A stretch of 64,000 nt of DNA, from the NCBI GenBank assembly GCA_903835255.1, contig CAILMI010000061.1, positions 1-64,000 on the forward strand. Direction: 5' to 3'. Made by a program: the position numbers and the translations under genes. Position 1 is the first letter of the stretch. The number at the start of each line of letters is the position of its first letter. Source of the DNA: an uncultured Verrucomicrobia subdivision 3 bacterium. GTDB taxonomy: Bacteria > Verrucomicrobiota > Verrucomicrobiia > Limisphaerales > UBA11358. The notes beneath the pieces are model-generated. The model was not told where the DNA came from. It worked only from the letters and a program-made list of their open reading frames with translations, and did no database searches. Positions 664-18,129 of the stretch are shown piece by piece.

Positions 664-686
664 ATAAACCGGAAGACACACTCCTT

Positions 687-1196: not shown

Positions 1197-1272
1197 AACA
1201 GCCACGCAAGACCATAAAATTGATAGACGGATGCGAATAACTTAAAACCTCAAAATCAAAAAACAATCCCCC

Positions 1273-2955
1273 ATGAACACTCCTATGAACACCGGCCCCA
1301 ACGATTCCAACAACTCCAGCTCCAGTTTCTGGACCATTTCCCGGCGCATTATCACCGGGTTTATCGCCCTGCTCCTTATCACGTCCGCGCTGGGAATCTT
1401 TACCCTGACAAAGTCGGACAGCCTCAAGAAAAATATTTTCGACTTGGGGAAAAACACGCTGCCGAGCCTTGAACTCCAAGTTGAAATCGTCGACGGAATT
1501 AAAGATAAAATGATTTTCATTCAGCAGCTGAATGACAATTTAAGTTCCGAACGCCGGGCCGACTTGATGAAGAAACTGCAACATGCCATCGATGAAACGG
1601 CGGCTGGCCTTAAAAAGTATGAATCCCTGCTGTCCGACGAGCGCGATCGGAGCCTCTGGTCGGAAGCCACCAAGCAAAACGAAAATCTGACCGCCTCCAT
1701 TCATCAAGCGGTGGACTTAATCAACAAGAACATCAGCGCCGCCGCTGGGAACGGCGCTGCCACTCAGGAAGCCCTTTCCAAATACCTGACGGGGACACTT
1801 GACCCTGTTTTCGCCACCGCGATGGAAGCCGCTCGTGCGGACTATGATTACAATGTCCAATTGGGCGGGGCCGCCTCTGAATCGGGAGATAAAAATGTTT
1901 CTTCCACTATTTCACTGACCCGCGTTTTCTTGGGCATCGCCATCGGGGTCAGCATCCTGATCTCCTGGATCATTATCCGGAGCACCAACAAGGCCTTGGG
2001 GGATATCACCCTGAATCTGGACCATGGCGCCCTTCAGACCGCCTCCGCCGCGCGCCAGGTGGCCTCGGCCAGCCAGAGCTTGTCCTCCGGCGCCAACGAG
2101 CAGGCCTCGTCCGTGGAAGAGACCAGCACCTCGCTGGAGGAAATGTCCAGCATGATTCAAGCGACGGCTGAGAACGCCCAGAAAGCGAAATCGCTGGCTT
2201 CGGAAGCCCGCGCCGTGGCTCAGGCCGGTTCCAAAACCATGGTGGAAATGACCCAGGCGATGGCGGCGATTGATTCTTCCAGCGCCGAGGTGGCTAAGAT
2301 TGTTAAAAACATTGATGAGATTGCTTTCCAAACCAATATTCTTGCACTGAACGCCGCGGTGGAAGCGGCGCGCGCGGGTGAGGCGGGCGCCGGATTTGCC
2401 GTGGTGGCCGACGAAGTCCGCTCGCTCGCGCAACGCAGCGCGGCGGCCGCGAAGGAGACCGCCGATAAGATCGAAGCGGCCATTGTCAACAGCCGCAAAG
2501 GATCGCTGAGCACGGCCAAAGTGGAGGAAGCCCTCACGCAGATCGCAGAAAAAGTCACCAGCACGGACTCGCTGGTTGCGGACATTGCCACGGCCGCGCG
2601 CGAGCAGGCTCAGGGGATTGAACAGATCAACAGCGCCATCGCCCAGATGGACAAGGTTTCCCAGAGCAACTCGGCCAGCGCCGAGGAAAGCGCCAGCGCC
2701 GCGGAAGAACTGGACGCGCAGGCGAAGGGCCTCAAAGATCAAGTGACCAAACTCCGCCAACTGGTGGGCGGCGGCACTAGCCGTGGCAAATCGGACGCTT
2801 CCCAATACAGTGTTTCGGTCAATTCATCGGCGCCCCAGCGCTCCCGGAATAAGACGGCTTCTGCTGTCAGCGGCGGACCCCGTCGGGCAGCCATCCCGAT
2901 GCCGGAAGACGCCCCCGCAAAAAATGGCGGCGAAGATGAATTCCGGAATTTTTAA
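1273..2955 (+). CDS. Methyl-accepting chemotaxis protein with small helical sensor (receptor 2)
   Basis: 560 residues. A short Ser/Asn-rich N-terminus precedes TM1 (about 26-46). A ~165-residue periplasmic region, predicted helical and of 4HB-like size, precedes TM2 (about 216-236). Only ~20 residues separate TM2 from the signalling helix ([16 protein letters not shown]), too few for a canonical HAMP domain. The signalling tip is standard ([16 protein letters not shown]). Compared with the other receptors this one lacks one heptad on each arm of the hairpin, making it a shorter length class. It ends in EFRNF, a probable CheR tether. The first ATG is used; another ATG lies 12 nt downstream. 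Ligand unknown. Confidence 0.93.
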
Positions 2956-2967
2956 GAATAGGGTTCC

Positions 2968-4785
2968 TTGACCCGCAGCACCAAACCAATCCAGCGGATG
3001 ACAAAAACCAGGAGCCAACTGGGCACTAGCGCCCTTTCCACGACCCTTGTGGTAATTCTTCTCATGCTGGCCATGGGAGGGATTATGGCTTGGATGCTGG
3101 GCAATCAATCCCAAATCCTCTCCGCTCAGGAACGGCGGTATGAATCCTATCGCCTGGCGGATGAACTGCGGCAAAGCTCGGATGACCTCACACGTCTGGC
3201 GCGTACCTATGTCACCACTGGGGACGCTCAGTATGAATCCCAATATTGGACTATCCTGAATATCCGGAACGGTACCGCCCCCAGGCCCCAGGAATATGGA
3301 AGGATTTATTGGGATTTCATGGCCGTGGACGGCGTCAAGCCGAGGCCCGATGGAAAGGTCATCGCCCTCCGTCAGCTGATGGAAGACCAAGGATTCACCG
3401 AAACAGAATTCGCCAAGCTCAAGGTGGCTCAGGACAATTCAGATGGCTTGGTTAAAATTGAGACCATCGCCATGAACGCGGTCAAGGGGCTTTTCGATGA
3501 CGGCAACGGCGGCTACAGCAAAAAAGGGGAACCCAACCCCGAACTGGCGAGAAAGCTGATGAATAGCCGGGAGTATCACCTTGAAAAAGCCCGGATCATG
3601 AAGCCCATTGACGAGTTTTTCGTCATGCTCGATCAGCGGACTCAGAGCGAGGTGCAAAACTTTGTCCAGCGCGGCTACATCCTGTTCTACACGCTGCTGG
3701 GTATGGCGGCATTGACCATCGTCGTGGTCATCCGCATGTGCGCTACCTTTTTCACCAAAATCATTCGCCCGCTCGACGCGCTGGCTAACGAGCTTTCCCA
3801 TGCCAGCCAGGGACTGGAAGGAGCCTCATCCCAACTCGCCCGCTCAAGTCAAAACCTTTCAGCCGGAGCCAATCATCAAGCGGCTTCCGTGGAAGAGACG
3901 AGCGCCTCGCTGGAGGAAATTTCCAGCATGGTCCGCGCCACGGCCGATAACGCGCACAAGGCCAAAACCGTCGCCTCCGAAACCCGGCTCATGGCGCAAA
4001 CCGGGTCGGGCAACATGGTGGACATGGACCGGACGATGGGGGAGATGAACCAGGCGATGGCGGCGATTGAATCCTCGAGCGGCGAGGTGGCCAAGATTGT
4101 CAAGGGCATCGACGAGATTGCGTTCCAGACCAACATTCTGGCGCTCAACGCGGCGGTGGAAGCCGCGCGCGCGGGAGAAGCGGGCGCGGGATTCGCCGTG
4201 GTGGCCGACGAGGTGCGCTCGCTGGCCCAGCGCAGCGCCGCCGCCGCCAAGGAGACGGCCGCTAAAATCGAGGCGGCCATTGCCAGCAGCCGCAACGGCT
4301 CAGCCAGCTGCCGCAATGGATCGGCCAGCTCCCTCAAGGTGGGAGAATCTCTAAAAAATATTGCGGATAAGATCTCCGCCACTGATGCATTGGTAGCCGA
4401 CATCGCCACTGCCGCGCAGGAGCAGACTCAGGGAATCGAGCAAATCAATCGAGCCATTGGCGAGATGGAGCAGGTGACGCAGAGTAACGCTTCCAGCGCC
4501 GAGGAAAGCGCGAGCGCTGCCGAGGAGCTCGCTACTCAAGCTGAAACCCTCAATGAGCTCGTCAGCAAACTTCGCGAGCTTATCGGCGGAGCCGCCGCAG
4601 ACCCTGCCCCGACCACACCAACGCCAGTTTCCAAGGCCCGCTCGACCGTGGTGGTGGATACCCATAAGCCCGCCGCCCGCAAACCCGCACCCCATTTGCC
4701 CCCCAAAAGCCGCGTCAGTATCCCCATGCCCCAGGACCCACCGGTCGGCGCGGCGGGCGAAGATCAGAATTTCCGCAACTTTTGA
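2968..4785 (+). CDS. Methyl-accepting chemotaxis protein with large periplasmic sensor (receptor 3)
   Basis: 605 residues from a TTG start 12 nt after receptor 2; ATG at 2998 is an alternative. The TTG start gives an N-terminus closer in length to receptor 4. TM1 is about 23-45 and TM2 about 236-256. Between them lies a ~190-residue helical region with [14 protein letters not shown] and [14 protein letters not shown], shared with receptor 4 and not assignable to a named sensor family from sequence alone. After TM2 only a half-HAMP-like helix ([13 protein letters not shown]) is visible. The signalling hairpin has an extra heptad on each arm: DRTMGEM (4027-4047) and a tandem RNGSAS-type repeat (4291-4332). 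The C-terminus is NFRNF. Confidence 0.93.
4291..4332 (+). repeat. 21-bp tandem duplication in receptor 3 (one extra heptad)
   Basis: Two diverged 21-base units (4291-4311 and 4312-4332) encode RNGSASC and RNGSASS. Equivalent pairs lie at 157-198 in receptor 1 and 6723-6764 in receptor 4; receptor 2 has one unit. A 21-base unit is exactly one coiled-coil heptad. Confidence 0.85.
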
Positions 4786-4807
4786 ACGGACGGAAGACGC
4801 CATTGAT

Positions 4808-5311
4808 ATGACCTCAGCCGCCCCCGCTGTTATTGCCACCAAGCCGGCCCGCTACCTGACTTTCAGTCTGGGGCGCGAGTCCTACGGCCTGCCGGTTCTC
4901 AATGTCCGCGAAATCATCCGGCTCTGCCCCATCACTCCCGTTCCCAAAATGCCGTCGCATATCAAGGGCGTCATCAACCTGCGCGGCACCGTTCTGGCCG
5001 TGCTCGACCTGCGGGCCAAATTCCAGATGCCCCTGGGCGACTACAACGAGCGTACCTGCATCATCGTCATCCAGGTCCCCTCCCCCTCGGGCCAGCCCCT
5101 CCTCATGGGCGCCATCGTCGACGCCGTCGAAGAGGTCCTCCAACTCGCCGACAGCGAAATCGAGCCCGCCCCCGACTTCGGCATGTCCTCCACTCCCGGC
5201 TACATCATCGGCATGGCTACCGTCCACGGCGGCGTCAAAATCCTCCTCAATATCGAAAAAGTCTTCCTCGAGGAGGGATCCATCTTGCTGCCCCTACACC
5301 TTCCCCAGTAA
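4808..5311 (+). CDS. cheW: Chemotaxis coupling protein CheW (copy 2)
   Basis: 167 residues. The frame is open well upstream inside receptor 3, but the ATG at 4808 gives a protein that aligns end to end with copy 1 and begins 22 nt after the receptor stop, as in copy 1. It has the same CheW core: [35 protein letters not shown] and [13 protein letters not shown]. It scaffolds receptors and CheA. Two CheW copies beside receptors of two length classes could serve different arrays or simply reflect duplication. Confidence 0.94.
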
Positions 5312-5333
5312 ACCCGGAGTATCCATTCAAAGC

Positions 5334-7202
5334 ATGAACCCCAAAGTTGATCACATTAAGAAAACGAGCCACCAACAGGGCGGCAGAATGCTGTTGGCGT
5401 CCGGCAGCTTCATCCTCTTGCTGCTGATGATTGGAGGCATGACCTGGCGCATGCTGGCGAACCAGAAAGACATCACCGATGCCCAGGAAAGACGCCACCA
5501 ATCTTATCTGCTGGCGGCTGAAATGCGTCAAAGTTCGGATGACTTGACGCGTCTGGCCCGCACCTACGTGGTCACCGGCGAGCCCAAGTATGAGGAGCAA
5601 TACTGGACCGTGCTAGCGATTCGGAACGGGAAAAGTCCGCGCCCCCAGGAATACAACCGCATTTACTGGGATTTCATGGCTGCGGATGGGATCCGTCCGC
5701 GCCCCGATAACCAGACTATTTCCCTGCAGCAGTTGATGAAGGACACCGGATTCACCGAGGCGGAATTTGCCAAGCTCAAGGAGGCGCAGGCCAACTCGGA
5801 CGGACTGGTCAAGATTGAGACCATCGCCATGAACGCCATGAAGGGCCTCTTTGATGATGGCCGCGGCTACTACACGAAAAAGGGCGAACCCAATCCGGAG
5901 ATGGCCAGGGAATTAATGCACAGCAAGGCGTATCATCTTGAAAAAGCACGGATCATGAATCCCATTGATGAATTCTTTGCCATGCTGGAAAAACGCACCA
6001 GCAGCGAGGTTCGGCTCCGCGTGGATCAAAGCTATTTCCTGTTCCGGGCCCTGCTGGTCCTGGTGGGCTTGGGCACTCTGGCGGTGGCCATTTATTCATG
6101 GCGGATCAGGCGCGCCAATCAGGAGGCGCTGGTGCAGATCGACCTCGAATGGAAATCCATCCTGGCGAAGATCGACTGCGACTGGAAAGTCATTCTAACC
6201 AACGTTTCAGAGGTCATCGTGGAACTCGACCGCAGCGCCGTCCAGACCGCCTCCGCCGCTCGACAGGTCTCCCTGTCCAGCAACACCCTCTCCTCTGGAG
6301 CCAGCCTGCAGGCCTCCTCGGTGGAGGAGACCAGCGCCTCGCTGGAGGAAATGACCAGCATGATCCGTGCGACGGCGGACAACGCGCAGAAGGCCAAGGC
6401 GCTGGCCTTGGAATCGCGCTCGGTGGTCGCTGCCGGCTGCCAGACGATGGGGGAGATGGACCGCACGATGGTGGAAATGAACCAAGCGATGGCGGCGATC
6501 GAATCCTCGAGCGGCGAGGTGGCTAAGATTGTCAAGGGCATCGACGAGATTGCGTTCCAGACCAATATTCTGGCGCTTAACGCGGCGGTGGAAGCCGCGC
6601 GCGCGGGAGAAGCGGGCGCGGGGTTCGCCGTGGTGGCCGACGAGGTGCGCTCGCTGGCCCAGCGCAGTGCCGCTGCCGCCAAAGAGACCGCCGCCAAGAT
6701 CGAGGCGGCCATCGCCAGCAGCCGCAACGGTTCGGCCAGCTGCCGCAATGGATCCGCCAGCTCGACCAAGGTGGGGGAATCCCTCAAGCACATCGCGGAT
6801 AAAATCTCCGCCACCGATTCGCTGGTGGCTGAAATCGCCACTGCCGCGCGGGAGCAGGCGCAAGGCATTGAGCAGATCAACGGGGGCATTGCGCAGATGG
6901 AGCAGGTGACCCAGAGCAATGCTTCCAGCGCCGAGGAAAGCGCGAGCGCTGCCGAGGAGCTCGCTGCCCAGGCTGAAACCCTTAATGAACTCGTCGGCAA
7001 ACTCCGCGAGCTCATCGGCGGCGCCTCTACTCCGACCTTGGTAGAACCGCCGCCCGTTTCCAAGGCCCGCTCCACCGTGGTGACGGATGCCCGCAAACCC
7101 GCATCGCATCTGGCGCCCCAAAGCCGCATCAGCATCCCTATGCCTCAGGAGCCAACCATCGGAAGCGCGCCGGGCGAAGACCGCGATTTCCGTAACTTTT
7201 AA
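5334..7202 (+). CDS. Methyl-accepting chemotaxis protein with large periplasmic sensor (receptor 4)
   Basis: 622 residues from ATG 5334, 22 nt after cheW copy 2; longer upstream frames overlap cheW and are rejected. TM1 is about 22-42 and TM2 about 234-255, enclosing the same helical sensor type as receptor 3 ([23 protein letters not shown]). No HAMP is visible. Instead residues 269-290 are two tandem 11-residue units ([22 protein letters not shown]) between TM2 and the signalling helix. The hairpin has the extra heptad on both arms (DRTMVEM at 6459-6479; tandem repeat at 6723-6764). The Pro-rich tail has SIPMP and ends in DFRNF. The last 636 nt closely resemble receptor 1. Confidence 0.93.
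6138..6203 (+). repeat. 33-bp tandem repeat in the receptor 4 membrane-to-signalling linker
   Basis: Units 6138-6170 and 6171-6203 encode [11 protein letters not shown] and [11 protein letters not shown]. An 11-residue (hendecad) period suits a continuous helix joining TM2 to the signalling hairpin where a HAMP domain would normally sit. Confidence 0.75.
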
Positions 7203-7213
7203 ACCCAGCAGAC

Positions 7214-8056
7214 ATGAGCGATCTCCGCGACGATTTATTTACCGATAGAGCTTACCGAACGCTGACAGAGTTGGTTTACGAGCACAGCCGCATCCGGCTG
7301 GGTTCGGACAAGCAGACGCTGCTGGCCAATCGGCTGCGGAAGCGGCTTCAAGTTCTGGGGCTGGACTCGTATGACGACTACTGCGAGGTGCTGCATTCCG
7401 CCCAGGGAAAAGCAGAGATTGAAGAACTGGTCGATCTGATTTCAACCAATCACACGCGGTTTTACCGGGAGGAAGAGCACTTCACTTTTCTGACCCGGCG
7501 GGTGCTGCCTGTGCTCGTCCCCCAGCTGCTCGCTGGCAAGGCGCCTTTGAGGCTGTGGTCTGCGGCCTCCTCTTCCGGCGAGGAGCCGTACACGATGGCG
7601 TTGGTGGTGTCAGAATTCATGATGGCCTTTCCCTCGGTGGAATGGCAGATCACTGCCTCCGATATCTCCCGGCGAATGCTGAACACCGCTCAACAGGGAA
7701 TCTACCCGATGGACGCCGTCAAACCCGTGCCCCCGGACCTGCTGAGGCGCTACTTTCAAAAAGGCGTTGGAGCCCGATCCGGAGTCTGCCGGGTGAGACC
7801 TGAACTCCGGAAGCGCGTGCACTTTGAACGCGTCAACCTGTTCCAGTCGGAATATCCCGTGCCCCTGAAGCAGCACATGATTTTCTGCCGCAATGTAATG
7901 ATTTATTTTGATCCCCCGTCCCGGGCGACGGCGGTTCAGCGCCTTGCCCACTATCTGGCTCCAGGGGGGTATCTGGTTGTGGGCCATTCAGAAAGTCTGC
8001 TAGGCATCCGCCATGGACTGCATTCGGTACAACAGGGAGTGTATCAAAAAACATGA
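7214..8056 (+). CDS. cheR: Chemotaxis receptor methyltransferase CheR
   Basis: 280 residues. It transfers methyl groups from S-adenosylmethionine to glutamates of the receptors. The N-terminal helical subdomain is followed by a Rossmann methyltransferase core with WSAASSSGEEPYTMAL (SAM-binding loop), FCRNVMIYFD and a C-terminal GGYLVVGHSESL. The beta-subdomain (LLRRYFQKGVGARSGVCRV) keeps the glycine-rich loop and the length I recall for E. coli CheR, which docks on receptor C-terminal pentapeptides. That fits the FRNF ends of the receptors next door. It starts 11 nt after receptor 4 and overlaps cheB by 4 nt (ATGA). Confidence 0.96.
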   Translation: MSDLRDDLFTDRAYRTLTELVYEHSRIRLGSDKQTLLANRLRKRLQVLGLDSYDDYCEVLHSAQGKAEIEELVDLISTNHTRFYREEEHFTFLTRRVLPVLVPQLLAGKAPLRLWSAASSSGEEPYTMALVVSEFMMAFPSVEWQITASDISRRMLNTAQQGIYPMDAVKPVPPDLLRRYFQKGVGARSGVCRVRPELRKRVHFERVNLFQSEYPVPLKQHMIFCRNVMIYFDPPSRATAVQRLAHYLAPGGYLVVGHSESLLGIRHGLHSVQQGVYQKT

Positions 8057-9132
8057 AGCCCCCTGTCAAACGAATCCGGGTGCTGGTGGTGGATGATTCT
8101 GCATTGGCGCGTCGCGCCATCAGCGATGCCCTGGCGCGCGATCCAGAGATTGAGGTGGTGGGTTCCGCGAGCGATCCCTATGTGGCACGGGATAAAATTA
8201 TTGCCCTTCAGCCAGATGTGATCACGCTCGATCTGGAGATGCCGCGCATGGACGGGCTGACCTTTCTTAAAATCCTGCAGGAACATCATCCGGTTCCCGT
8301 CGTGGTGGTGAGTTCCCTGACCCAAGCCGGATCAGCCAAAGCCATGGAGGCGCTGGAAGCAGGCGCTCTGGACGTCCTAGGCAAGCCGGACGGCAGCCGC
8401 AGCTTTGCCCAAATGGCTCATCAGCTGGCGTACCATGTGAAAGCGGCGGGGCGTTCCCGCCGCAAATTAGGCCGCGTGCAGAAGGTCGCCAAGCCGATCA
8501 AGGTGGTGAAACCCACCGCTCCTTCCATCGCGCCCGGAGACTTCTCCTCCCGCCGGATCATCGTCATCGGCGCGTCGACCGGCGGTGTAGAAGCGCTGCG
8601 CTTCCTCCTGCCGCGGCTGCCCGCCGGACTGCCTCCGATCGTCGTGGTCCAGCACATCCCTCCCAACTTTTCTCGGATTATGGCCGAGCACCTCGACGAG
8701 CTATGCCCCTACACCGTCCGCGAGGCGGTGGACGGCGAAGAGCTGCGGCCAGGACTGTGCTTGATTGCCCCGGGCGATTATCACCTTGCGCTCGCGCGGG
8801 CCGGGCTGGGCTACCGCGTGCGCCTGACCCAATCGCCCCCCGTCCATCACTGTCGCCCCTCGGTGGACATTCTCTTCCGTTCGGCCGCAGAGCAGGCGGG
8901 ACACCATGCGGTGGCCGCCCTTCTGACTGGGATGGGAGTGGATGGCGCGCACGGCCTGAAATTATTGAGGGCGGCGGGATCCCGCACCCTGGCTGAGGAC
9001 GAGGAGAGCTGCGTGGTGTTCGGCATGCCTCAGGCAGCGATCAACTTGGGGGCTGCCGAGCAAATTGTCCCCCTGCCCCGGATGCCGCAAGCCATCCTAA
9101 ACGCCCTTGCTCAACCCCTCATCAAACCATGA
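8053..9132 (+). CDS. cheB: Protein-glutamate methylesterase/deamidase CheB
   Basis: 359 residues. The N-terminal receiver domain has acidic D14/D15, phospho-acceptor D60 (TLDLEMPRMDG) and a Lys in GKPDG. A linker (about 130-165) leads to the methylesterase domain with the expected triad: S175 in GASTGG, H201 in VVQHIPP and D297 in GMGVDG. It removes receptor methyl groups and is activated by CheA phosphorylation. ATGA overlaps join it to cheR and to the next gene, so the three are translationally coupled. Confidence 0.96.
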   Translation: MKPPVKRIRVLVVDDSALARRAISDALARDPEIEVVGSASDPYVARDKIIALQPDVITLDLEMPRMDGLTFLKILQEHHPVPVVVVSSLTQAGSAKAMEALEAGALDVLGKPDGSRSFAQMAHQLAYHVKAAGRSRRKLGRVQKVAKPIKVVKPTAPSIAPGDFSSRRIIVIGASTGGVEALRFLLPRLPAGLPPIVVVQHIPPNFSRIMAEHLDELCPYTVREAVDGEELRPGLCLIAPGDYHLALARAGLGYRVRLTQSPPVHHCRPSVDILFRSAAEQAGHHAVAALLTGMGVDGAHGLKLLRAAGSRTLAEDEESCVVFGMPQAAINLGAAEQIVPLPRMPQAILNALAQPLIKP

Positions 9133-9620
9133 CCGCAATAACGACTTCAGAACTGGGCCTCATGGCCGCCAGCGCTCTGCAAGAGGTGCTTGCCACCCAA
9201 TTCAAAATTTCCGTCGCGCCGGCCGTCGCTGGAGATACTTCGCCCACCAAAAAAAACGAGCCTTTTCTGGATGGATCTGTTCGCCTTCACGGCCCAAAAC
9301 TGTTTGGCAGTCTTCATCTTCAAGTGCCCGCCGCCTGGGCTGCCCGGCTGAATGATTCCCTGCAGGCGCCGGGAGATCCCCCTTCATCGGAAGCCGACCA
9401 GGAAGATCTGGTGGGCGAACTCTGCAACATGGTGGCGGGGCGCTTGGGCGCAAGCCTTGCCGCCAGCGGTTACGCCGGCACCCTGAGCACCCCCGATATC
9501 CAGCGCGGCAGGTTTGCGTCCTCGGAACCCCCGCCGGGAAGCCAGCAGAGCCGCACAGACTGGACATGCGAGGGACATCTGCTTACGCTCATTCTGCGGA
9601 TAGACTTAAACCCGAAATGA
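9129..9620 (+). CDS. CheX-like CheY-P phosphatase
   Basis: 163 residues. The second half has the CheC/CheX-type signature: DLVGELCNMVAGRLGASLAA, with E97 and N100 in the E-x-x-N arrangement used to position water for CheY-P hydrolysis in that family. A conserved-looking TLSTPDI segment follows. There is only one such motif, as in CheX rather than most CheC proteins. It lies between cheB and cheY with 4-nt overlaps on both sides, a position that fits a dedicated phosphatase for the CheY downstream. CheX usually acts as a dimer; that is family knowledge, not seen here. Confidence 0.75.
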   Translation: MTAITTSELGLMAASALQEVLATQFKISVAPAVAGDTSPTKKNEPFLDGSVRLHGPKLFGSLHLQVPAAWAARLNDSLQAPGDPPSSEADQEDLVGELCNMVAGRLGASLAASGYAGTLSTPDIQRGRFASSEPPPGSQQSRTDWTCEGHLLTLILRIDLNPK

Positions 9621-10015
9621 CCCAAAAAATCCTCAGCGTCGACGATAGCAAAACGGTGCGCCGCATGCTCGCCCGCGTGTTTCAGCCCTACGACTGCACC
9701 CTCTGCGAGGCTGCCAACGGGGAGGAAGGACTGGCGGTGGCCGCGCGTGAAAAACCGGACTTGATTGTTCTGGATTACAACATGCCGGTCATGGACGGCA
9801 TCACCATGCTGCGCAAGTTGCGGGAGGACGCCGCCCTCCGAAACACGCCGGTGATCATGCTGACGGCCGAAACAAGCGCGACGAACATGGCCGTCGCCGC
9901 CCGGCTGGGCGCACGCGATTACATCACCAAACCTTTCCAGGAAGACCGCCTTGTGGCCAAGGCCTCCCGAGTTATCCCGCTGCTCCCCCGCCTCGACACG
10001 CAAAAACAACCTTAA
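9617..10015 (+). CDS. cheY: Chemotaxis response regulator CheY
   Basis: 132 residues, a single receiver domain. The active-site set is complete: D9/D10, phospho-acceptor D53 (VLDYNMPVMDG), T83 (MLTAE) and K105 (ITKPF). The ATG at 9617 overlaps the CheX-like stop (ATGA); an upstream in-frame start at 9566 lies inside that gene and is rejected. There is no output domain, so it presumably signals by protein contact. No flagellar or pilus motor genes are in the window, so its target is unknown. Confidence 0.93.
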   Translation: MTQKILSVDDSKTVRRMLARVFQPYDCTLCEAANGEEGLAVAAREKPDLIVLDYNMPVMDGITMLRKLREDAALRNTPVIMLTAETSATNMAVAARLGARDYITKPFQEDRLVAKASRVIPLLPRLDTQKQP

Positions 10016-10041
10016 CCGTTTCCCCTTTTCACTGAACACCC

Positions 10042-11286
10042 ATGAGCTCTATTCCTACAGAAACCGCCCCTCAAGCTGCCCCGTCCGCCGCGCCGGCCGC
10101 CACGGTCCAGCAGGCCTCCATCCTCGTGGTGGATGACAGCCGCACCATGCGGATGGCCCTGATCCGGGCGCTCAACGGCCTCGGTTTCCAAAACATCACC
10201 GAGGCCGCTAATGGACGCCAGGCTGTGGATCTCATCGTTCAAAAATCGTTCGACCTGATGTTGCTGGACATGGAAATGCCTGAGATGAACGGTATGGAAG
10301 TGCTGGCCGCTGTGAAGCAAAATCCCCAGCTGAGCGGTCTGCCGATCATTGTCATCTCCGGAGCCGAGCAGGTGGAGAACGCCGTCAAGTGCATTGAGGC
10401 CGGCGCCGAAGATTACCTGCCCAAACCGTTCAATCCCACCCTGCTCCGCGCGCGGGTGAGCACCTCTCTGGAAAAGAAACGGCTGCGCGATCTGGACCGC
10501 GTTCGCCTCGTGCAGCTGCAGACGGAAAAAGAGCTGCTGGAAAAAACCCAGCGCCGCCTAGACGAGGAACTGGGCGAGGCCGCCCATTATGTCCGCTCCA
10601 TCTTTCCGGCCCCGACGGAGACTCCGCTGCCGGTGGACTGGCACCATCAGCCCTCCACCGAGCTGGGCGGCGACGCTTTTGGCTATCACTGGATTGATGC
10701 CGATCATTTCGCGATTTATCTGCTCGATGTCTGCGGCCATGGCGTGGGCGCCTGCCTGCTCTCCGTCACCGCGATCAACATGATCCGTTCCGGCTCATTG
10801 CCCAACACTGACTTCCGCGATCCAGGGGCCGTCCTCACGGGTCTCAACAACGCCTTTCTGATGGAGCGCCAGAACAACATGTATTTCACCCTGTGGTACG
10901 GGGTCTATCATGCACCCACCCGGACGCTGCGCCACGCCAGCGGCGGACATCCCGCCGCCCTGCTATTGACCCCCGATGCCTCTGGCGCGACCGCCAGCGT
11001 CCGCATGCTGGCCCCGGGCCTGATCATTGGGGCCATGGAGGACATGGTCTACACGGCCAAGTCCGATCCCGTCCCTCCCGGATCCAAATTGCTGGTGCTC
11101 TGCGACGGCTGCTACGAGGTGGCGGACTCCGCGGGCCAGATGCTTGAGTTCGATGAATTTGAACGGTACATGCAAACCCAGGGCACGCAACCCGAGGGCT
11201 TGGCCCAGCTTTTCAAATGGCTTCAGGCGCGGCACGGCCCCGGCCCCCTCGATGATGATTTCACCATCGTGCGCGCCCATTTTTAA
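10042..11286 (+). CDS. Response regulator fused to SpoIIE/RsbU-type PP2C phosphatase
   Basis: 414 residues. An Ala/Pro-rich N-terminus precedes a receiver domain (about 25-140) with D31/D32, phospho-acceptor D76 (LLDMEMPEMNG) and K128 (LPKPF). A helical coiled-coil-like linker runs about 140-185. The phosphatase domain (about 190-414) has the metal-binding motifs ELGGDAF (D211) and LLDVCGHGVGA (D229), a GGHPAAL segment and the terminal DDDFTIVRAHF. This family dephosphorylates phospho-Ser/Thr on STAS anti-anti-sigma proteins. The next gene encodes a STAS domain, so a phosphatase-substrate pair is likely. It follows cheY by 26 nt, which links the circuit to chemosensory phosphorelay. Confidence 0.9.
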   Translation: MSSIPTETAPQAAPSAAPAATVQQASILVVDDSRTMRMALIRALNGLGFQNITEAANGRQAVDLIVQKSFDLMLLDMEMPEMNGMEVLAAVKQNPQLSGLPIIVISGAEQVENAVKCIEAGAEDYLPKPFNPTLLRARVSTSLEKKRLRDLDRVRLVQLQTEKELLEKTQRRLDEELGEAAHYVRSIFPAPTETPLPVDWHHQPSTELGGDAFGYHWIDADHFAIYLLDVCGHGVGACLLSVTAINMIRSGSLPNTDFRDPGAVLTGLNNAFLMERQNNMYFTLWYGVYHAPTRTLRHASGGHPAALLLTPDASGATASVRMLAPGLIIGAMEDMVYTAKSDPVPPGSKLLVLCDGCYEVADSAGQMLEFDEFERYMQTQGTQPEGLAQLFKWLQARHGPGPLDDDFTIVRAHF

Positions 11287-11419
11287 AATACATTTTGCTT
11301 GGGCGACATTCGGGCGAGACTGTCGCTGTTCTCTTTGCCATTGCCATCGCCATCGCCAACCACGAAAGGCTGCGATTCAGAATTGTAATTTTTAAAAGCG
11401 GCTTTTTTAAAGCGACCTT

Positions 11420-13714
11420 ATGGAAATCACCACCCAACTGGAAGACCTGATTCCCATACTCACACTCTCCGGACGTTTTGATGGAGCCGGCGCGGTGGAC
11501 TTTGACAAGGCCGCCGAATCCGTTGCGGCCCATGCCCCGTTTCTAGTCCTCGACCTGACAGGAGTTCATTACCTCTCCAGCATCGGACTTCGCTCCCTCG
11601 TGGGACTCGAAAAAGCGCTCAAGCTTCGCGAGGGCGGACTGGTTCTGACGGGAATGACCGCCCCGATTCTGGAAGTGCTTCAGGTGTCGCGTCTGGATTC
11701 TCTGCTGCGCCTCGCACCCACCCGCATGGCGGCACTGTCGGTGGCCCGGGCGGCTCACGCTGCCGGTCCCGTGGTGGAACATCGCCTGCCCGGCTGCCAC
11801 TTGCGCGTCCGCCGGCTGGCCGGATGCGGCAGCGCGATTGAATGGTGGAAGGCCGCCCCCGCCGGCGCCACGGGCAGCCAGCGGCTCATCCGAACCCGGC
11901 CCGAGGATTTGGGGTTTGGCTTTGGAACCGGTTTTTTGGGTGAAAGCCAGGCCGCTTCCCCCACCCTTCCGGGCCGGCTGATCAGTGCCCCGACCTTTGC
12001 CGGCGTCCTAGGAAGCGCCGCGGGCGATGTCTCCGACTTTATCAGCGGAGGCGCTGCCGGCGCGGTGCCCGTTCAAGTATCGCGAGCCCTGGGCCTAGCC
12101 GGCTGCCCAGCGTTCGTGGTGGAAGCCACCGGCTCGCAGCCGTTCCGCCTGCTGGAACTGTTGGACGGATTGTTTCCCATCGTAGCCGGCTCGGGCTCGA
12201 CGCTTCCGCTGCTAGGCTTTGTGATGATGGGAGATTACCCGGAGAACCGGGGAGCGGTTCTCGTCACGGGCCTCGCCTTTGAAGCGGGGTCCGAATTGAC
12301 TCGAGTGGACCCGGACGGGCATATCGCGCAATGGGCCGAGTCCAGCCGGCTTCCCTCGGGGCGACGGGCCCTGGGAGGCGGCGTCACGCTGATCCCTGGC
12401 ACAGCCGTCTCCACGGGAAACGATCCGGCAGAAGCCGTGCGTACCCGGGCCACCCTTGAGGCGCTGCAGGCGGTGGTCGGTCTGGAAGCCGTCGGCCCCC
12501 TTTCCCGGGCGGTGCTCTGGCTGTATGTGCCCGAAACAGTCCGGGGCGGCGCAGAGAAACTCCTGCAGGTGACCCGGGAAGGCGAAGGCGAGGGCAAGGG
12601 TGAATGGCGCGAAGAATGGGACACTATTCTGCGTCAGTTGTACGGCGATTGCCGGTCCGTCCATCTGACCCCGCTGCACGGCGGCTACATGTCCAAGACC
12701 TTCCGCGCGGTGGCCTATGATGGCGAAGGGCGGCGGATGCTGCCGACGGTGGTCAAGATCGGGGCGGCGGCCCTGACGGCCCGTGAGGAGCTAGCCAACC
12801 GGGAGTATGTGTCGCGCTTTATCTTGAACAACGCCACCACCCTGCTGGGAGGCGCCCGGGCGGGGAGCTGGGCGGGCTTGCGCTACAATTTTCTGGGAGT
12901 CAACGGCCCCGAGAGCCGCCTGGTCTGGCTGCGGGAACATTACCTGTCCCGCCCAGTGCCCGAGGTGCTGGGGCTTTTCGAGACGCTCCTGAGCCGCGTC
13001 CTCAAGCCGTGGTACGGCCAGCCCAAATGGGAACAGGTGAGCCTCTACCGCGACCACACGCCGCTCCGGCTTTTTCCCACACTGATCGAGACCGCCGAGA
13101 CCGTGCTGGGCATATCCGCCGACGACCCCGACTTTGACTGCCACGAGCTGGGCTTGAAACTCCCGAACCCGTTTCATTTTCTGAAGCACGAATATCCGCG
13201 GCGGGCGTCGCACTCGCGCCTCTGGTACACCACCATCTGCCACGGCGACCTAAATCTGCAGAACGTGCTCGTGGACGAACGGGACAACCTCTATGTCATC
13301 GATTTCTCCGAGACGGCTCCGCGCAATGCCGTGTCCGATTTCGCGCGACTGGAGCCGATCCTCAAGTTTGAGATGACCCGCCTGGAGACGGACGAGGACC
13401 TGCGCCAGCTGCTGGAGTTCGAGGTGGGCCTGACCGGTGTCACGCGCCTGAGCGATCCGCCGCCGCTCGAATATCGCGGCGATGATCCCCGGGTGGCGCG
13501 CGCCCATGCGGTCATCACCTCCCTGCGCCGCTGCGCCGACACGGTCACCCTTTTTGAGCAGGACCTGATTCCCTACTGGCTGGCGCTTCTGGAATGGACT
13601 TATTCGGTGGTCTGCTATTCCCAGCTCTCGCTCCGGCACAAGCGCTACGCCGCCTGCAGCGCGGCGTTGATCTGCCGCTCGATCCAGCAGCTGGAGAGCG
13701 CTCCAAGAAAATGA
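11420..13714 (+). CDS. STAS domain, uncharacterised middle region and APH/choline-kinase-like phosphotransferase
   Basis: 764 residues. Residues 1-100 are a STAS domain; YLSSIGLR (51-58) aligns with the phosphorylation loop of SpoIIAA, placing S54 at the phosphoserine position, while the preceding Asp is Ser. Residues ~115-395 are an alpha/beta-looking region I cannot name. Residues ~400-740 resemble aminoglycoside/choline kinases: K446 in VVKIG, catalytic HGDLNLQN (H608, D610, N615) and metal-binding D628 in VIDFSET. All kinase catalytic residues appear present. It sits 133 nt after the PP2C phosphatase and overlaps the aldehyde dehydrogenase by 4 nt. I infer a STAS switch carrying its own kinase; the phosphorylated substrate is unproven. 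Confidence 0.75.
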   Translation: MEITTQLEDLIPILTLSGRFDGAGAVDFDKAAESVAAHAPFLVLDLTGVHYLSSIGLRSLVGLEKALKLREGGLVLTGMTAPILEVLQVSRLDSLLRLAPTRMAALSVARAAHAAGPVVEHRLPGCHLRVRRLAGCGSAIEWWKAAPAGATGSQRLIRTRPEDLGFGFGTGFLGESQAASPTLPGRLISAPTFAGVLGSAAGDVSDFISGGAAGAVPVQVSRALGLAGCPAFVVEATGSQPFRLLELLDGLFPIVAGSGSTLPLLGFVMMGDYPENRGAVLVTGLAFEAGSELTRVDPDGHIAQWAESSRLPSGRRALGGGVTLIPGTAVSTGNDPAEAVRTRATLEALQAVVGLEAVGPLSRAVLWLYVPETVRGGAEKLLQVTREGEGEGKGEWREEWDTILRQLYGDCRSVHLTPLHGGYMSKTFRAVAYDGEGRRMLPTVVKIGAAALTAREELANREYVSRFILNNATTLLGGARAGSWAGLRYNFLGVNGPESRLVWLREHYLSRPVPEVLGLFETLLSRVLKPWYGQPKWEQVSLYRDHTPLRLFPTLIETAETVLGISADDPDFDCHELGLKLPNPFHFLKHEYPRRASHSRLWYTTICHGDLNLQNVLVDERDNLYVIDFSETAPRNAVSDFARLEPILKFEMTRLETDEDLRQLLEFEVGLTGVTRLSDPPPLEYRGDDPRVARAHAVITSLRRCADTVTLFEQDLIPYWLALLEWTYSVVCYSQLSLRHKRYAACSAALICRSIQQLESAPRK

Positions 13715-15147
13715 TGAAACCCGCCGAACTCGTCCCATCAAATCAGCTGGTCGACCCTTATAAAGGAACGGTGATTGCCACTTATCCCCTGGAATCGTTT
13801 ACTTCCGCCGACGCCAAGATCAGGAGCGCCAAGGCGGCCCAACAACGCTGGCAGCAGCTGCCCTTCAGGAAACGGCGGGAGCTTTATCTGGACGCGCTGG
13901 CCACCATTGAAAAAAACCTGGACACCTACGCCGCCCGGATGACGCAGGAAATGTTCAAGCCCCTGCGCCACGCTCAAGGAGAACTTGAAAGCGGGGTTGC
14001 CAAACTGAAACGCATTGCCGATCTGGCTGAAGCCGCGCTGCAAGACCGGCCGGTCGCTGCCAACGGAGCCGCTTTTGAGTTCCACATCCAGCGCGTGGCC
14101 AAAGGGGTCATCTATACGATCGCGCCCTGGAACTATCCCTTCTTCACCGCGCTCAACAGCATTGGCCCGGCGCTGCTTGCGGGCAATGCGGTGGTGCTGA
14201 AACACGCCTCAACGCCGGCAATCGGCGAACTGTTTGAGCGCGCCTTCAATCATATGGGCGGGATCGCGGGCCTCTGCCAGCATCTGTCCCTCGACATCCC
14301 CACCTCCAATCGGGTGATTCTGGAATCTGCCATTGACCACATTGTCTTTACCGGTTCAGTGGCCGGGGGCGCCGCCATCGCCCAGCTGACCGGACAGCGG
14401 GCAGCGAACCTCACGCTCCGCGAACCCTTTTTGCAGACGTCGCTGGAACTGGGCGGCAGCGATGCCGCCTACGTTGCCGCCGATGCCGATCCCGTGCACG
14501 CCGCGCAGATGCTGATATCCGTCGGGCGCCTGGACAATTCGGGCCAATCCTGCTGCGCCACCAAGCGCCTTTTTCTGCACTCACGGATTGCCGGGGCATT
14601 TCTGGCCGAGGCGAAAGCGCTAATGGAAAAGGAAGTTTCCGGATCGCCTCTGGATCCCCGCACCACCCTAGGGCCCCTGTTTGGCGGTCCCAAAGCCATT
14701 GATGCCCTCATGGAAATGATTGGTGACGCGAGCGCCGCGGGCGCGCAGATTTTGACGGGCGGCGCCGTGATCCAAAAAGACGGCTACCGATTTCTTCTCC
14801 CGACCCTCATTACGGGTGTCAGCTTGAATATGAAGATCATGCAAGCGGAGACGTTCGGCCCCGTCCTCCCGGTGATGATTGTCAAAGATGACGAGGAAGC
14901 CCTGGCGCACCTGAATCATCCCCTGTTCGGTTTGACCACGGCGGTATTCACCCACGATGCCGGGCTGCAAAAACGGGTGATCGACACAGCCCAATCCGGA
15001 ACCGTTTTCATCAATTGGTGCAACGACGTCCATGCGGAAGTGCCATGGAACGGCTGGGGTCACTCGGGCAACAGCATGGCGGCATTGTCCCATTATGGAT
15101 TTGACGCCTTGACCCGCCCCAAGTCCATCGTCAAGGCATTGCCATAA
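13711..15147 (+). CDS. NAD(P)-dependent aldehyde dehydrogenase family protein
   Basis: 478 residues. It oxidises an aldehyde to a carboxylate with NAD(P). Family motifs are intact: IAPWNYPFFTALNSIGPALLAGN (cofactor fold), FTGSVAGG, general base E246 in LELGGS and catalytic C281 in NSGQSCCATK. The C-terminal half has AETFGPVLPV and GTVFINWC. It resembles succinate-semialdehyde or betaine-type members, but the substrate cannot be read from sequence. ATG 13711 overlaps the stop of the STAS-kinase gene (ATGA); a frame opening at 13594 lies inside that gene and is rejected. Its coupling to two STAS-kinase genes is unexpected for a metabolic enzyme. Confidence 0.92.
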   Translation: MMKPAELVPSNQLVDPYKGTVIATYPLESFTSADAKIRSAKAAQQRWQQLPFRKRRELYLDALATIEKNLDTYAARMTQEMFKPLRHAQGELESGVAKLKRIADLAEAALQDRPVAANGAAFEFHIQRVAKGVIYTIAPWNYPFFTALNSIGPALLAGNAVVLKHASTPAIGELFERAFNHMGGIAGLCQHLSLDIPTSNRVILESAIDHIVFTGSVAGGAAIAQLTGQRAANLTLREPFLQTSLELGGSDAAYVAADADPVHAAQMLISVGRLDNSGQSCCATKRLFLHSRIAGAFLAEAKALMEKEVSGSPLDPRTTLGPLFGGPKAIDALMEMIGDASAAGAQILTGGAVIQKDGYRFLLPTLITGVSLNMKIMQAETFGPVLPVMIVKDDEEALAHLNHPLFGLTTAVFTHDAGLQKRVIDTAQSGTVFINWCNDVHAEVPWNGWGHSGNSMAALSHYGFDALTRPKSIVKALP

Positions 15148-15157
15148 CCATTTCACC

Positions 15158-15193
15158 GCCGACCGTTTGCAGGGTCGGCAAATTCGTTATTTT
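15158..15193 (+). terminator. Hairpin terminator after the aldehyde dehydrogenase gene
   Basis: A 7-bp stem GCCGACC (15158-15164) and GGTCGGC (15173-15179) with an 8-nt loop is followed by an AT-rich stretch ending in TTATTTT. The U-tract is imperfect, so termination may be partial. It begins 11 nt after the stop. Confidence 0.6.
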
Positions 15194-15199
15194 AACCCC

Positions 15200-15227
15200 T
15201 TGGATCCATCCTTTTAAATCATATAAT
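15200..15227 (+). promoter_or_regulatory. Sigma70-like promoter giving a probable leaderless transcript
   Basis: TTGGAT (15200-15205), a 16-bp spacer and a perfect TATAAT (15222-15227) stand directly before the ATG at 15234. Transcription would be expected to start at or next to that ATG. No Shine-Dalgarno sequence precedes it. Confidence 0.6.
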
Positions 15228-15233
15228 AGCCCC

Positions 15234-16400
15234 ATGAAAATCGTCTCCCAAAAGAATGGCAGCGCGCTAAACATCTCCCTGTCGGGACCGCTCGACATGG
15301 CCTCCGCCGCCGCATTGGAAAAGGATCTGCAATTGGACGGCGTGGAGCACCTCACCCTGGACCTGAACGAGTGCGCCTACATTTCCAGCGCGGGGCTGCG
15401 GGTGCTCATGGGCGCCCAAAAGCGGATGGCCGGCGGAAACCGGACGATGGTTTTGACGCATGTTTCCAAGGAGGTTTACGCCGTGTTCGACCTGACGGGG
15501 CTTTCCAAAATGCTCACCATCAAACAAAAGGTCCGCGAAATTTCCCTGGATGGTCTGGAGTTTCTCTCCGCCGGCGTGTGCGGGGAATGCTACCGGCTGG
15601 ATCCCGAGCGCATCGTGAAGCTTTACAACGAGGGCGTGGGACCGGAGATCGCCGAGCGCGAAAAGGAGTACGCGAAAGCCGCTTTTGTGATGGGCATCCC
15701 CACGGCGATTTCCTATGACGTGGTCGCCTGCGGCAGCCGGACGGGCATCGTCTACGAAATGCTGGAGGCGGAACTGTTCAGCACGGTCATCCGGAAAGAC
15801 CCGGATAATATGGATCAGCATGCCCGCACCCTGGCGCAAATTGCCCAGTCCATCCACTCCACCCCGGCGGGCGCGGGCGTGTTTCCCAACATGAAGGAGC
15901 GGTTCCGGGGATATATCCGGCAGATGGATTTCTTCCTGAGCGCCGAGGACATCGCGTTTCTCTTGGGTAAATTGGAGTCCATTCCCGAGGCGGACACCTG
16001 CGTCCACTTTGACATCCACAGCAGCAACATCATGATCCGCAACGGCGAGGCGCTGGTGATCGACATGGGGGATCTGTCCGTGGGCAGCCCCCTATTTGAT
16101 GTCGCCCTGCTCTACATGATCTACGGCGTGCCGGAGATGGGGATTTCGGAGCTGGCCACCAAGATCCCTAACGCCCGCGGCGTGGAGCTCTGGAACGGGT
16201 TTGTGAAGCATTACTTTGCCGGCCAGCCGCCGGAAGCCTATGAAGTATTTCACCGGGACCGGTATTTTTTCGCGTCGCTGAGGATTATCTACACCATTAC
16301 CTTCCTGCCGAAACTCCGGGAACAATGCGTTCACTGGGTCCGGGACATCCTACTTCCGAAAATGCGGGAGTGCGAAACCGCTGCGGCAGGGCGACGCTGA
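15234..16400 (+). CDS. STAS domain fused to aminoglycoside-phosphotransferase-like kinase
   Basis: 388 residues. Residues 1-100 form a STAS domain; YISSAGLR puts S52 at the phosphoserine position of anti-sigma-factor antagonists. Residues ~105-330 are an APH-type kinase: K129 (RIVKLYNEG), Glu-containing helix, catalytic HFDIHSSN (H258, D260, N265) and VIDMGD (D277, D280). The architecture recalls the STAS-plus-kinase or TIGR02172-type family, though I cannot run the model. It lacks the unnamed middle region of the larger homologue at 11420. It appears to be transcribed separately from a leaderless promoter. Likely partners are the PP2C phosphatase at 10042 and an unknown STAS client. Confidence 0.8.
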   Translation: MKIVSQKNGSALNISLSGPLDMASAAALEKDLQLDGVEHLTLDLNECAYISSAGLRVLMGAQKRMAGGNRTMVLTHVSKEVYAVFDLTGLSKMLTIKQKVREISLDGLEFLSAGVCGECYRLDPERIVKLYNEGVGPEIAEREKEYAKAAFVMGIPTAISYDVVACGSRTGIVYEMLEAELFSTVIRKDPDNMDQHARTLAQIAQSIHSTPAGAGVFPNMKERFRGYIRQMDFFLSAEDIAFLLGKLESIPEADTCVHFDIHSSNIMIRNGEALVIDMGDLSVGSPLFDVALLYMIYGVPEMGISELATKIPNARGVELWNGFVKHYFAGQPPEAYEVFHRDRYFFASLRIIYTITFLPKLREQCVHWVRDILLPKMRECETAAAGRR

Positions 16401-16518
16401 CAGAAAAAGGCCAACGCAGCAGACGGCACAGTCGCAGGATTGTAACACTTTATAATTCGCCCGCGCACGTCCCCGTTACCTATACTTATTTGGTAATCGA
16501 TTTCCAAACATTTGCTCA

Positions 16519-18129
16519 ATGATCACTGAAATATGCGCCAATTTATTTGCCGGGTTGGGGCTATTTTTTATTGGAATCAAGTTCATCTCTGAGAACATGA
16601 AGCAAATGACCGGCCGGAGCTTCCGGCGGTTTGCTTCCCTCTTTTCGACGAATCGCTACCTCGCCGCCTTCGCCGGCCTTGTTTCCGGGGCGCTGGTGCA
16701 GAGCACCACGGCGGTGACCTTCATCATGGCCAGCTTGGTCTCCAGCCGGATGATTCCGCTGAGGAACTCCATCCCCATGGTCGCTTGGTCCAATGTCGGC
16801 AGCACCTTAATCATCCTGCTGGCGGTGCTCAATCTCCATGTCGCCTCCCTATTCCTCATGGGGTTGATCGGCTTATTATATTACCTGAATCTTCATAAAA
16901 GTGATTCCTTTCGCTCCGGAATCGGCGCCCTGCTCGGCCTGGGCGCCATCCTGACCGGCCTCACTTACATCAAGGCGGGCTCAGCGCCGCTGAAGGAAAT
17001 TCACGACGTCACGGTCGTTCTCAATTATATCAAAGATTCGCATGCGCTTCCCTTTCTCGTCGCTGGACTGCTGACCTTGGTTCTTCAATCCTCCACCACC
17101 ATGTCTGTCATCGCCATCGCCCTGGCCCGGTCCGGACTGCTGAGCGTGGATCAAACTATCATGGTGATTTACGGGGCGAATCTGGGTTCGGGCGTCAGCA
17201 CCTGGATCCTCTCCTCCACTCTCAGCGGCAGCGCGCGCCAGCTGGCTTTATATCAGTCGGTCTTCAAGGTCGTTGGGACGGTGATTCTCGTGCCCCTTTT
17301 CTACGCCGAATACTACCTGCACCTCCCCGGCATCCATTCCCTGCTGCCGCTCCTGAGCTCGGACTTTGGCCGTCAGATGGCCTATGTGTCCCTGATTTTT
17401 CAACTGATCTCCACGGCGACCACCTTAGCCGCTCTGAAATGGGTTTTATCCTTTCTGGAGCGGATATCCCCCGTAACCCGCGAGGAGCAGCTGAGCCTCC
17501 CGCAATTCATTTACGAAAAAGCCCTTGAAGAGCCGGAGACGGCCGTGGACTTGGCGGAGAAGGAGCATCAGCGGCTGGTGAGCCATCTGCCCAGCTTTCT
17601 AGATACCGTCCGGGAAGAATCCGCCGCCTCTCCCGCTGACAATGCCGACACCCTGCACCGGTCCGTCTCGAGCGTGGCGGGAGAAGTGACCCAGTTCGTG
17701 AACTCGCTGATGGAGCGGCAGCCCTCGCGCGAGTGTCTGGAGCGGGCGCTGAATCTCCAGAACCGGAATGACCTCCTTATTTCGCTGTCGGACAACCTTA
17801 AAACCTTTGTCGCCGTCTCGACTGAGTCCAAGGATTCCCCGCAGATCCTTAGTTTCAGCCAGCGGGCGGCGGAAGCGCTTCATCTCATCCTTACAACCGC
17901 GCAGGAGACCGTGGAAACCCCGGACGAAGACAACCGCCAGATCCTACTTCAATTGACCGCGGACCGGGGCGAGATGATGGGGCAGATGCGCCGATCCCTG
18001 AACAACATCGGGCAGGACCTGACGGCGGCACAGAATCAGTTTCTGATGTCGCTGACCACGCTATTCGAGCGCATCATCTGGCTGCTGCAACGCCTCGGAA
18101 CCCTCCTCGCCCGCCCCGCAACCGCCTGA
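16519..18129 (+). CDS. Na/Pi-cotransporter family membrane protein with PhoU-like tail
   Basis: 536 residues. The N-terminal ~315 residues carry two inverted-repeat transport modules with the family QSS signatures (GALVQSTTAVTF and LVLQSSTTMSV), glycine-rich partner motifs (SNVGSTLI, GANLGSGV) and about eight or nine hydrophobic segments. Residues ~330-536 are hydrophilic and helical, as in the PhoU-like domain of bacterial NptA-type proteins. It probably moves phosphate with sodium across the inner membrane. Upstream, TATAAT occurs at 16451 without a convincing -35. It follows the STAS-kinase gene by 118 nt on the same strand; a functional link is possible but unsupported. Confidence 0.88.
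   Translation: MITEICANLFAGLGLFFIGIKFISENMKQMTGRSFRRFASLFSTNRYLAAFAGLVSGALVQSTTAVTFIMASLVSSRMIPLRNSIPMVAWSNVGSTLIILLAVLNLHVASLFLMGLIGLLYYLNLHKSDSFRSGIGALLGLGAILTGLTYIKAGSAPLKEIHDVTVVLNYIKDSHALPFLVAGLLTLVLQSSTTMSVIAIALARSGLLSVDQTIMVIYGANLGSGVSTWILSSTLSGSARQLALYQSVFKVVGTVILVPLFYAEYYLHLPGIHSLLPLLSSDFGRQMAYVSLIFQLISTATTLAALKWVLSFLERISPVTREEQLSLPQFIYEKALEEPETAVDLAEKEHQRLVSHLPSFLDTVREESAASPADNADTLHRSVSSVAGEVTQFVNSLMERQPSRECLERALNLQNRNDLLISLSDNLKTFVAVSTESKDSPQILSFSQRAAEALHLILTTAQETVETPDEDNRQILLQLTADRGEMMGQMRRSLNNIGQDLTAAQNQFLMSLTTLFERIIWLLQRLGTLLARPATA

Follow-up and report, generated by a model that had tools for sequence, protein, structure and literature searches.

Genes of the locus

The window, meaning the whole stretch of 64,000 nucleotides analysed here, covers positions 1-64000 of the 69595 of contig C61 in a draft genome of 3.17 Mb. 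On its plus strand lie, in this order, the end of an MCP gene, CheW, three MCPs, CheR, CheB, CheX, CheY, a receiver-PP2C phosphatase, a STAS-TCAD9/APH fusion, an aldehyde dehydrogenase, a STAS-APH fusion and an Na/Pi cotransporter. A truncated MCP gene (1-1196) opens the chemotaxis cluster, which runs off the contig start, and no CheA was recognised among the profiled genes. CheR (7214-8056, plus strand) was named from our own reading of the sequence, without a profile. CheB, CheX and CheY (8053-10015, plus strand) stand directly 5' of the phosphatase gene and are the likely origin of the signal to its receiver. The MCP genes (149-6762) contain 21-base tandem repeats, as heptad coiled coils would give.

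The phosphatase gene (10042-11286, plus strand) closes the chemotaxis run. A first-pass annotation of this DNA had described its product as a receiver-PP2C protein in a chemosensory cluster, which is borne out by the neighbouring genes and by the Pfam scores (Response_reg, 106 bits; SpoIIE, 123 bits; both far over cut-off). By motif position both domains are intact (receiver D31, D32, D76 and K128; PP2C D229, D355 and D404-406), and the protein has the SpoIIE-type PP2C with intact metal-binding residues that belongs to an Rsb-type system. HsbR/HsbA and RssB of Pseudomonas are receiver-PP2C regulators acting on a STAS protein. The phosphatase shares the RssB-type architecture, its best solved full-length relative being the probable two-component response regulator 3eq2, but it scores 116 bits with the NCBIfam RssB model (NF045505), far under the cut-off of 700.

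Downstream follow a long fusion (11420-13714) and a short fusion (15234-16400), each joining a STAS domain to an APH-fold kinase. The first-pass annotation had listed the phosphatase and then the two fusions; all three genes were confirmed, but an aldehyde dehydrogenase that it did not mention (13711-15147, plus strand; Pfam Aldedh, 325 bits; start inferred, at 13711 or 13714) sits between the fusions, which are therefore not adjacent. The Na/Pi cotransporter (16519-18129, plus strand; Pfam Na_Pi_cotrans, 129 bits) runs in the same direction and is a candidate member of the unit. The whole is a candidate unit of same-strand genes and, as an operon, an unproven grouping; a terminator scan found 9 terminators against 8.9 expected by chance. 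Both STAS fusions lie less than 5 kb from one of just two SpoIIE phosphatase genes over cut-off in the genome, the other being on contig C45. This arrangement, a phosphatase and two STAS-kinase fusions in a chemosensory cluster, is real and unusual.

Domains and conserved residues of the fusions

The long fusion, assigned from Pfam and residue alignment, begins with a STAS domain (11420-11725; 45 bits, cut-off 22.6) that carries a putative phosphoserine, S54 (codon 11579-11581), and continues through a middle region into a TCAD9/APH kinase domain (12617-13540; K446, H608, D610, N615 and D628), recognised by Pfam, alignment and motifs. The kinase is well over the cut-off for TCAD9 (PF19974, Ternary complex associated domain 9; 147.8 bits, cut-off 40), of which it is a member, and also exceeds that for APH (28.4 bits, cut-off 23.2). 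No Pfam match was found in the middle region (amino acids ~103-400, window 11726-12616), which among the collected ORFs matched only its own family. The AlphaFold2 model of the 764-aa protein was poor (pLDDT 52.8). S53, S54, K446, H608, D610, N615 and D628 are invariant in all seven aligned homologues. The name of PF19974 refers to ternary (vWA-MoxR) conflict systems. Here the domain is fused to STAS, and no vWA/MoxR gene was recognised beside it among the profiled window genes (1-18129: chemotaxis, PP2C, aldehyde dehydrogenase, Na/Pi); the homologous loci are partly annotated. A paper on ternary conflict systems describes a few active APH-type kinases, which may act on small molecules (PMC7159879); elsewhere in the literature searched, TCAD9 was mentioned only in passing.

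The short fusion (plus strand; assigned from Pfam, NCBIfam, alignment and AlphaFold2) consists of an RsbV/SpoIIAA-like STAS domain (15234-15539; Pfam STAS, 52 bits) with a putative phosphoserine, S52 (codon 15387-15389), and an APH-fold kinase domain (15543-16397; 41.5 bits, cut-off 23.2; K129, E143, H258, D260, N265 and D277), defined by alignment and fold match. Its kinase domain aligns over the entire model of TIGR02172, an APH-like paralogous family, but reaches 122 bits against a curated cut-off of 228 and has an N-terminal STAS domain fused to it; going by these scores, it is a TIGR02172 relative and not a member. The AlphaFold2 model (pLDDT 92.1, pTM 0.82) matches RsbV in 6m36 over residues 1-98 (Z 18.4, 1.2 Å over 98 residues) and also SpoIIAA in 1th8. 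For the remainder of the chain the matches are APH kinases, 4ej7 among them (Z 18.4), and mostly small-molecule kinases, for example APH(3') and choline kinase. With phmmer the STAS domain finds SpoIIAA 1auz (E 1.2e-9), S52 aligning with the first serine of the DSSGLG motif (S58), so that the RsbV/SpoIIAA-like STAS domain with its phosphoserine position, as in an Rsb-type system, is present. Taken together, the first-pass annotation was right that the STAS domains are RsbV/SpoIIAA-like (for the short fusion by the match to 6m36), and that the catalytic residues H608/D610/N615/D628 and H258/D260/N265/D277 are present; the STAS, APH and SpoIIE domains, for which it had suggested profile searches, all score over their Pfam cut-offs. 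Both kinases belong to the APH superfamily (PF01636) by score and catalytic residues, the fold having been checked for the short fusion only.

Among 41 aligned STAS-TIGR02172 proteins, S52 is kept in 40, while H258, D260, N265 and D277 occur in all 41, as do K129 and E143, whose conservation is limited to this family. Judged from the alignments, residue conservation in the fusions is far beyond chance. The single exception is an Akkermansia protein of HD_4-STAS-APH architecture, with tyrosine at the serine position, an intact kinase and an adjoining GHKL gene. Two Lachnospiraceae proteins outside the set have phenylalanine there, one of them (L073) again HD_4-STAS-APH. Among 90 related kinases, STAS was undetected in 50, yet H258, D260, N265 and D277 are kept in every one. 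The catalytic residues are thus retained where the STAS domain is undetected or has tyrosine or phenylalanine in place of the serine, suggesting that the kinase is kept without a STAS serine to phosphorylate.

Distribution and neighbourhood of the fusions

A single scan of genome contigs yielded 80 loci, comprising 37 full-length orthologues of the short fusion (47-78% identity) and 43 more distant ones. The orthologues come from Verrucomicrobiota, Planctomycetota, Gemmatimonadota, Pseudomonadota, Armatimonadota and Chloroflexota, placing the family in at least six phyla, although some taxon labels are titles of metagenome-assembled genomes and may be wrong (for example a 3.1 Mb 'Klebsiella'). 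Within its own phylum, a match extending beyond the STAS domain occurs in only 2 of 388 genomes, own included, and plasmid tblastn gave partial kinase or STAS matches only. In the tree the window protein groups with another Verrucomicrobia sequence (100/100). A second copy in the same genome, on the 4147 bp contig C62, falls among Planctomycetota sequences and is possibly a recent transfer, or else a contaminating contig or binning error; the tree groupings suggest transfer more generally, but the bins may be mixed.

No PP2C or GHKL gene neighbours any of the 37 orthologous loci (314 kb of flanks, searched with phmmer and iterated profiles), and with Pfam SpoIIE run over the whole carrier genomes no phosphatase gene turned up on the same contig at less than 100 kb, many of these contigs being short. 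The first-pass annotation had named the lack of a neighbourhood link between STAS-APH fusions and PP2C genes in other genomes as refuting its proposal, and this check went against the proposal: no such link was found, either at these 37 loci or beside the STAS-TCAD9 homologues. Nor is any other neighbour conserved across phyla at the 37 loci beyond likely antisense ORFs, so the place of the fusion beside the window's PP2C may be a one-off. Apparent cross-phylum neighbour families look like antisense ORFs or stem from near-identical genomes, and the one family checked, a divergent gene in four Gemmatimonadetes, encodes an ABC transporter protein that was matched only weakly elsewhere. At the genome level, SpoIIE was found in 36 and RsbW-type GHKL in 35 of 38 carrier genomes (those of the 37 orthologues and that of L072), as against 5 and 4, respectively, of 14 control genomes not matched by group. 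SpoIIE was not detected in G445, and neither SpoIIE nor RsbW in G446, a possibly incomplete genome with an intact STAS-TIGR02172 protein. More distant loci do have such neighbours: 7 of the 43 have PP2C or GHKL nearby, with operon-like runs at L078, L080 and L093 and a complete module, GHKL included, at L078, L087 and L093.

Homologues of the long fusion, STAS-TCAD9, were found in four genomes that carry STAS-TIGR02172 as well, three from Gemmatimonadota and one labelled Armatimonadetes, and in two further Gemmatimonadota without it; the frequency in Gemmatimonadota was 4 of 298. In the other 387 Verrucomicrobiota genomes the search gave STAS-only matches at most, and a scan of viral contigs with the STAS-TCAD9 alignment found no relatives. 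A stand-alone STAS gene stands ahead of STAS-TCAD9 at four loci, two of which have a MesX-like gene, a gene for a cNMP-binding protein and a further STAS gene downstream (Pfam for L124 only). Besides our genome, 4 of the 38 carriers have both fusions, which in L044 are separated by about 3.3 kb; this co-occurrence is suggestive of a link, the numbers being small.

GHKL kinases in the genome and beside related phosphatases

The first-pass annotation had proposed that the GHKL kinase of the RsbU/RsbV/RsbW system is replaced here by the fused kinase, and that no GHKL anti-sigma factor is present. The latter holds for the window locus, but not for the genome, in which PF13581 has one strong match, on contig C68 (C68:39178-39537; 83 bits, all others at most 34 bits). 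This RsbW-like GHKL gene (HATPase_c_2/RsbW) lies between two STAS genes in a second partner-switching cluster (C68:38541-47233; L203 8541-17233), which comprises, in order, STAS, the GHKL gene, STAS, a PHO4 phosphate transporter, STAS, an ABC substrate-binding protein, a STAS-containing 419-aa protein and a permease-like gene. No PP2C was found in the 20 kb read around it. With GHKL and STAS but no PP2C, the C68 cluster complements the window locus. Phosphate transporters stand near STAS genes at both places, the one in the window being the Na/Pi cotransporter.

Relatives of the receiver-PP2C were found in 21 of 338 genomes of the phylum (E 1e-60, own included), and 19 loci were read. A GHKL gene is fused or within 1 kb at ten of these, lies 7 kb off at one and is absent at eight, most of which have as neighbours CheB and genes with a receiver that are about as long as CheA; a STAS-kinase fusion stands beside none of the 19. 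The closest relative (G350) is 59% identical in the PP2C part and has a GHKL gene directly downstream. The order PP2C-GHKL-STAS was seen at two of the ten GHKL-bearing loci (L196 and L200), and two of the ten (L200 and L201) gave no receiver profile match. In a small tree with long branches the C68 protein groups, weakly supported (82/86), with the GHKLs of G350, G202, G297 and G370, which stand beside or are fused to such phosphatases. A GHKL kinase of the RsbW/SpoIIAB type, absent at the window locus and present on C68, may pair with the window's PP2C; such a link between C61 and C68 would draw on their complementarity and this weakly supported tree, not on adjacency. The proposed replacement is not supported, because the genome still encodes an RsbW-type GHKL elsewhere; GHKL genes near related phosphatases and in nearly all carriers speak against it as well.

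A partner switch that may gate output kinases

We tentatively propose, while holding it to be somewhat short of probable, that these genes belong to an ordinary partner switch, in which the C68 GHKL, acting in trans, and the chemosensory receiver-PP2C set RsbV-like STAS domains that gate APH-fold output kinases. The receiver-PP2C would be the output phosphatase of the chemosensory array; the C68 RsbW-like GHKL would phosphorylate S54 and S52 in trans, and the receiver-PP2C would dephosphorylate these serines. The phosphorylation state of the STAS domain would then gate the attached kinase, an output enzyme that probably acts on a small molecule. The domains, their intact residues and, for the short fusion, folds like those of RsbV and of APH kinases are read from sequence, as is a genomic GHKL with STAS partners; from these we infer the mutual action of C68 RsbW, PP2C and STAS domains, the control of the kinase by STAS and the nature of its substrate. 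An RsbW in trans and a chemosensory PP2C that together set the STAS domains would seem the most economical reading.

The likeness to RsbU/RsbV/RsbW (SpoIIE/SpoIIAA/SpoIIAB) consists in the SpoIIE-type PP2C, the RsbV-like STAS with its conserved serine and the RsbW-type GHKL in the genome. It differs in that the GHKL is on another contig, the STAS domains are fused to APH-fold kinases, and the phosphatase bears a receiver and sits in a chemotaxis cluster. A precedent for control of a STAS-type antagonist by a receiver-PP2C comes from Mycobacterium smegmatis, where RsfR, such a protein, dephosphorylates RsfB (PMC10950880); there the action has been shown, and here the corresponding genes are seen. 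Unlike in RsfR/RsfB, HsbR/HsbA and RssB, the phosphatase gene here belongs to a chemotaxis cluster and has STAS-kinase fusions as neighbours. Should a STAS switch indeed gate the APH-fold kinase attached to it, an enzyme would come under the direct control of partner switching, chemoreceptors would supply the input, and chemosensing would be linked to a new output.

A possible, if doubtful, alternative takes each STAS-APH protein for a small-molecule kinase complete in itself, in which STAS serves docking or allostery with no tie to the phosphatase, the neighbourhood in this genome being incidental. This would account for the orphan contexts at all 37 orthologous loci, the lack of a neighbour conserved across phyla and the rare, scattered distribution, and it agrees with the predominance of small-molecule kinases among the fold matches and with the fusion of sister kinases to HD_4 and HAD hydrolases. 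It fits less well with the near-invariant serine in core members and the RsbV-like fold, with the presence of RsbW and SpoIIE in nearly all carriers, with relatives in operon-like runs with PP2C, GHKL and STAS genes, or with two STAS fusions so close to one of only two PP2C genes. The orphan contexts would also suit the switch favoured by the first-pass annotation, in which the APH-fold kinase phosphorylates the STAS serine of its own chain without any GHKL and the chemosensory receiver-PP2C resets it. We now consider this unlikely. An invariant serine and intact kinase residues do share one chain, carrier G446, possibly incomplete, has no detected RsbW or SpoIIE, and Rv1364c of Mycobacterium tuberculosis, likewise a kinase and STAS in a single chain, is reported to autophosphorylate its STAS serine, but that chain has a GHKL-type kinase domain and a PP2C and no APH kinase (cited in PMC10950880). 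The cis-kinase idea is weakened because this genome retains a GHKL, as do the loci of related phosphatases; it is weakened, too, by the lack of PP2C beside orthologues, by the 50 related kinases in which STAS went undetected, and by the Akkermansia and Lachnospiraceae HD_4-STAS-APH proteins, which keep the kinase residues with tyrosine or phenylalanine for serine. More improbable still is that the STAS domains are decoys or alternative RsbW clients, the kinase standing outside the switch and the PP2C freeing other STAS proteins for a target of sigma or second-messenger type. Several STAS proteins do accompany one GHKL in the C68 cluster, and HsbR-HsbA of Pseudomonas is reported to be a partner switch with multiple outputs (PMC5085249, PMC6482189), but the strict conservation of the kinase residues indicates that the kinase is itself under selection.

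The substrate of the STAS-TIGR02172 kinase is a testable question, for a family with 47-78% identity to the window protein across its phyla. In the literature searched we found nothing on TIGR02172 and no description of this family. Related kinases without a detected STAS, and others fused to HD_4 or HAD hydrolases, suggest that the substrate is a small molecule. Such architectures were seen mostly in gut bacteria (HD_4-STAS-APH at L073 and L080, HD_4-APH at L076, HAD-APH at L107), and at L093 (676-1980) an RsbW-like GHKL is fused to a lipid-kinase-like domain (DAGK-YegS-GHKL). Fusions to hydrolase or lipid-kinase-like domains are a possible clue to what the kinase acts on.
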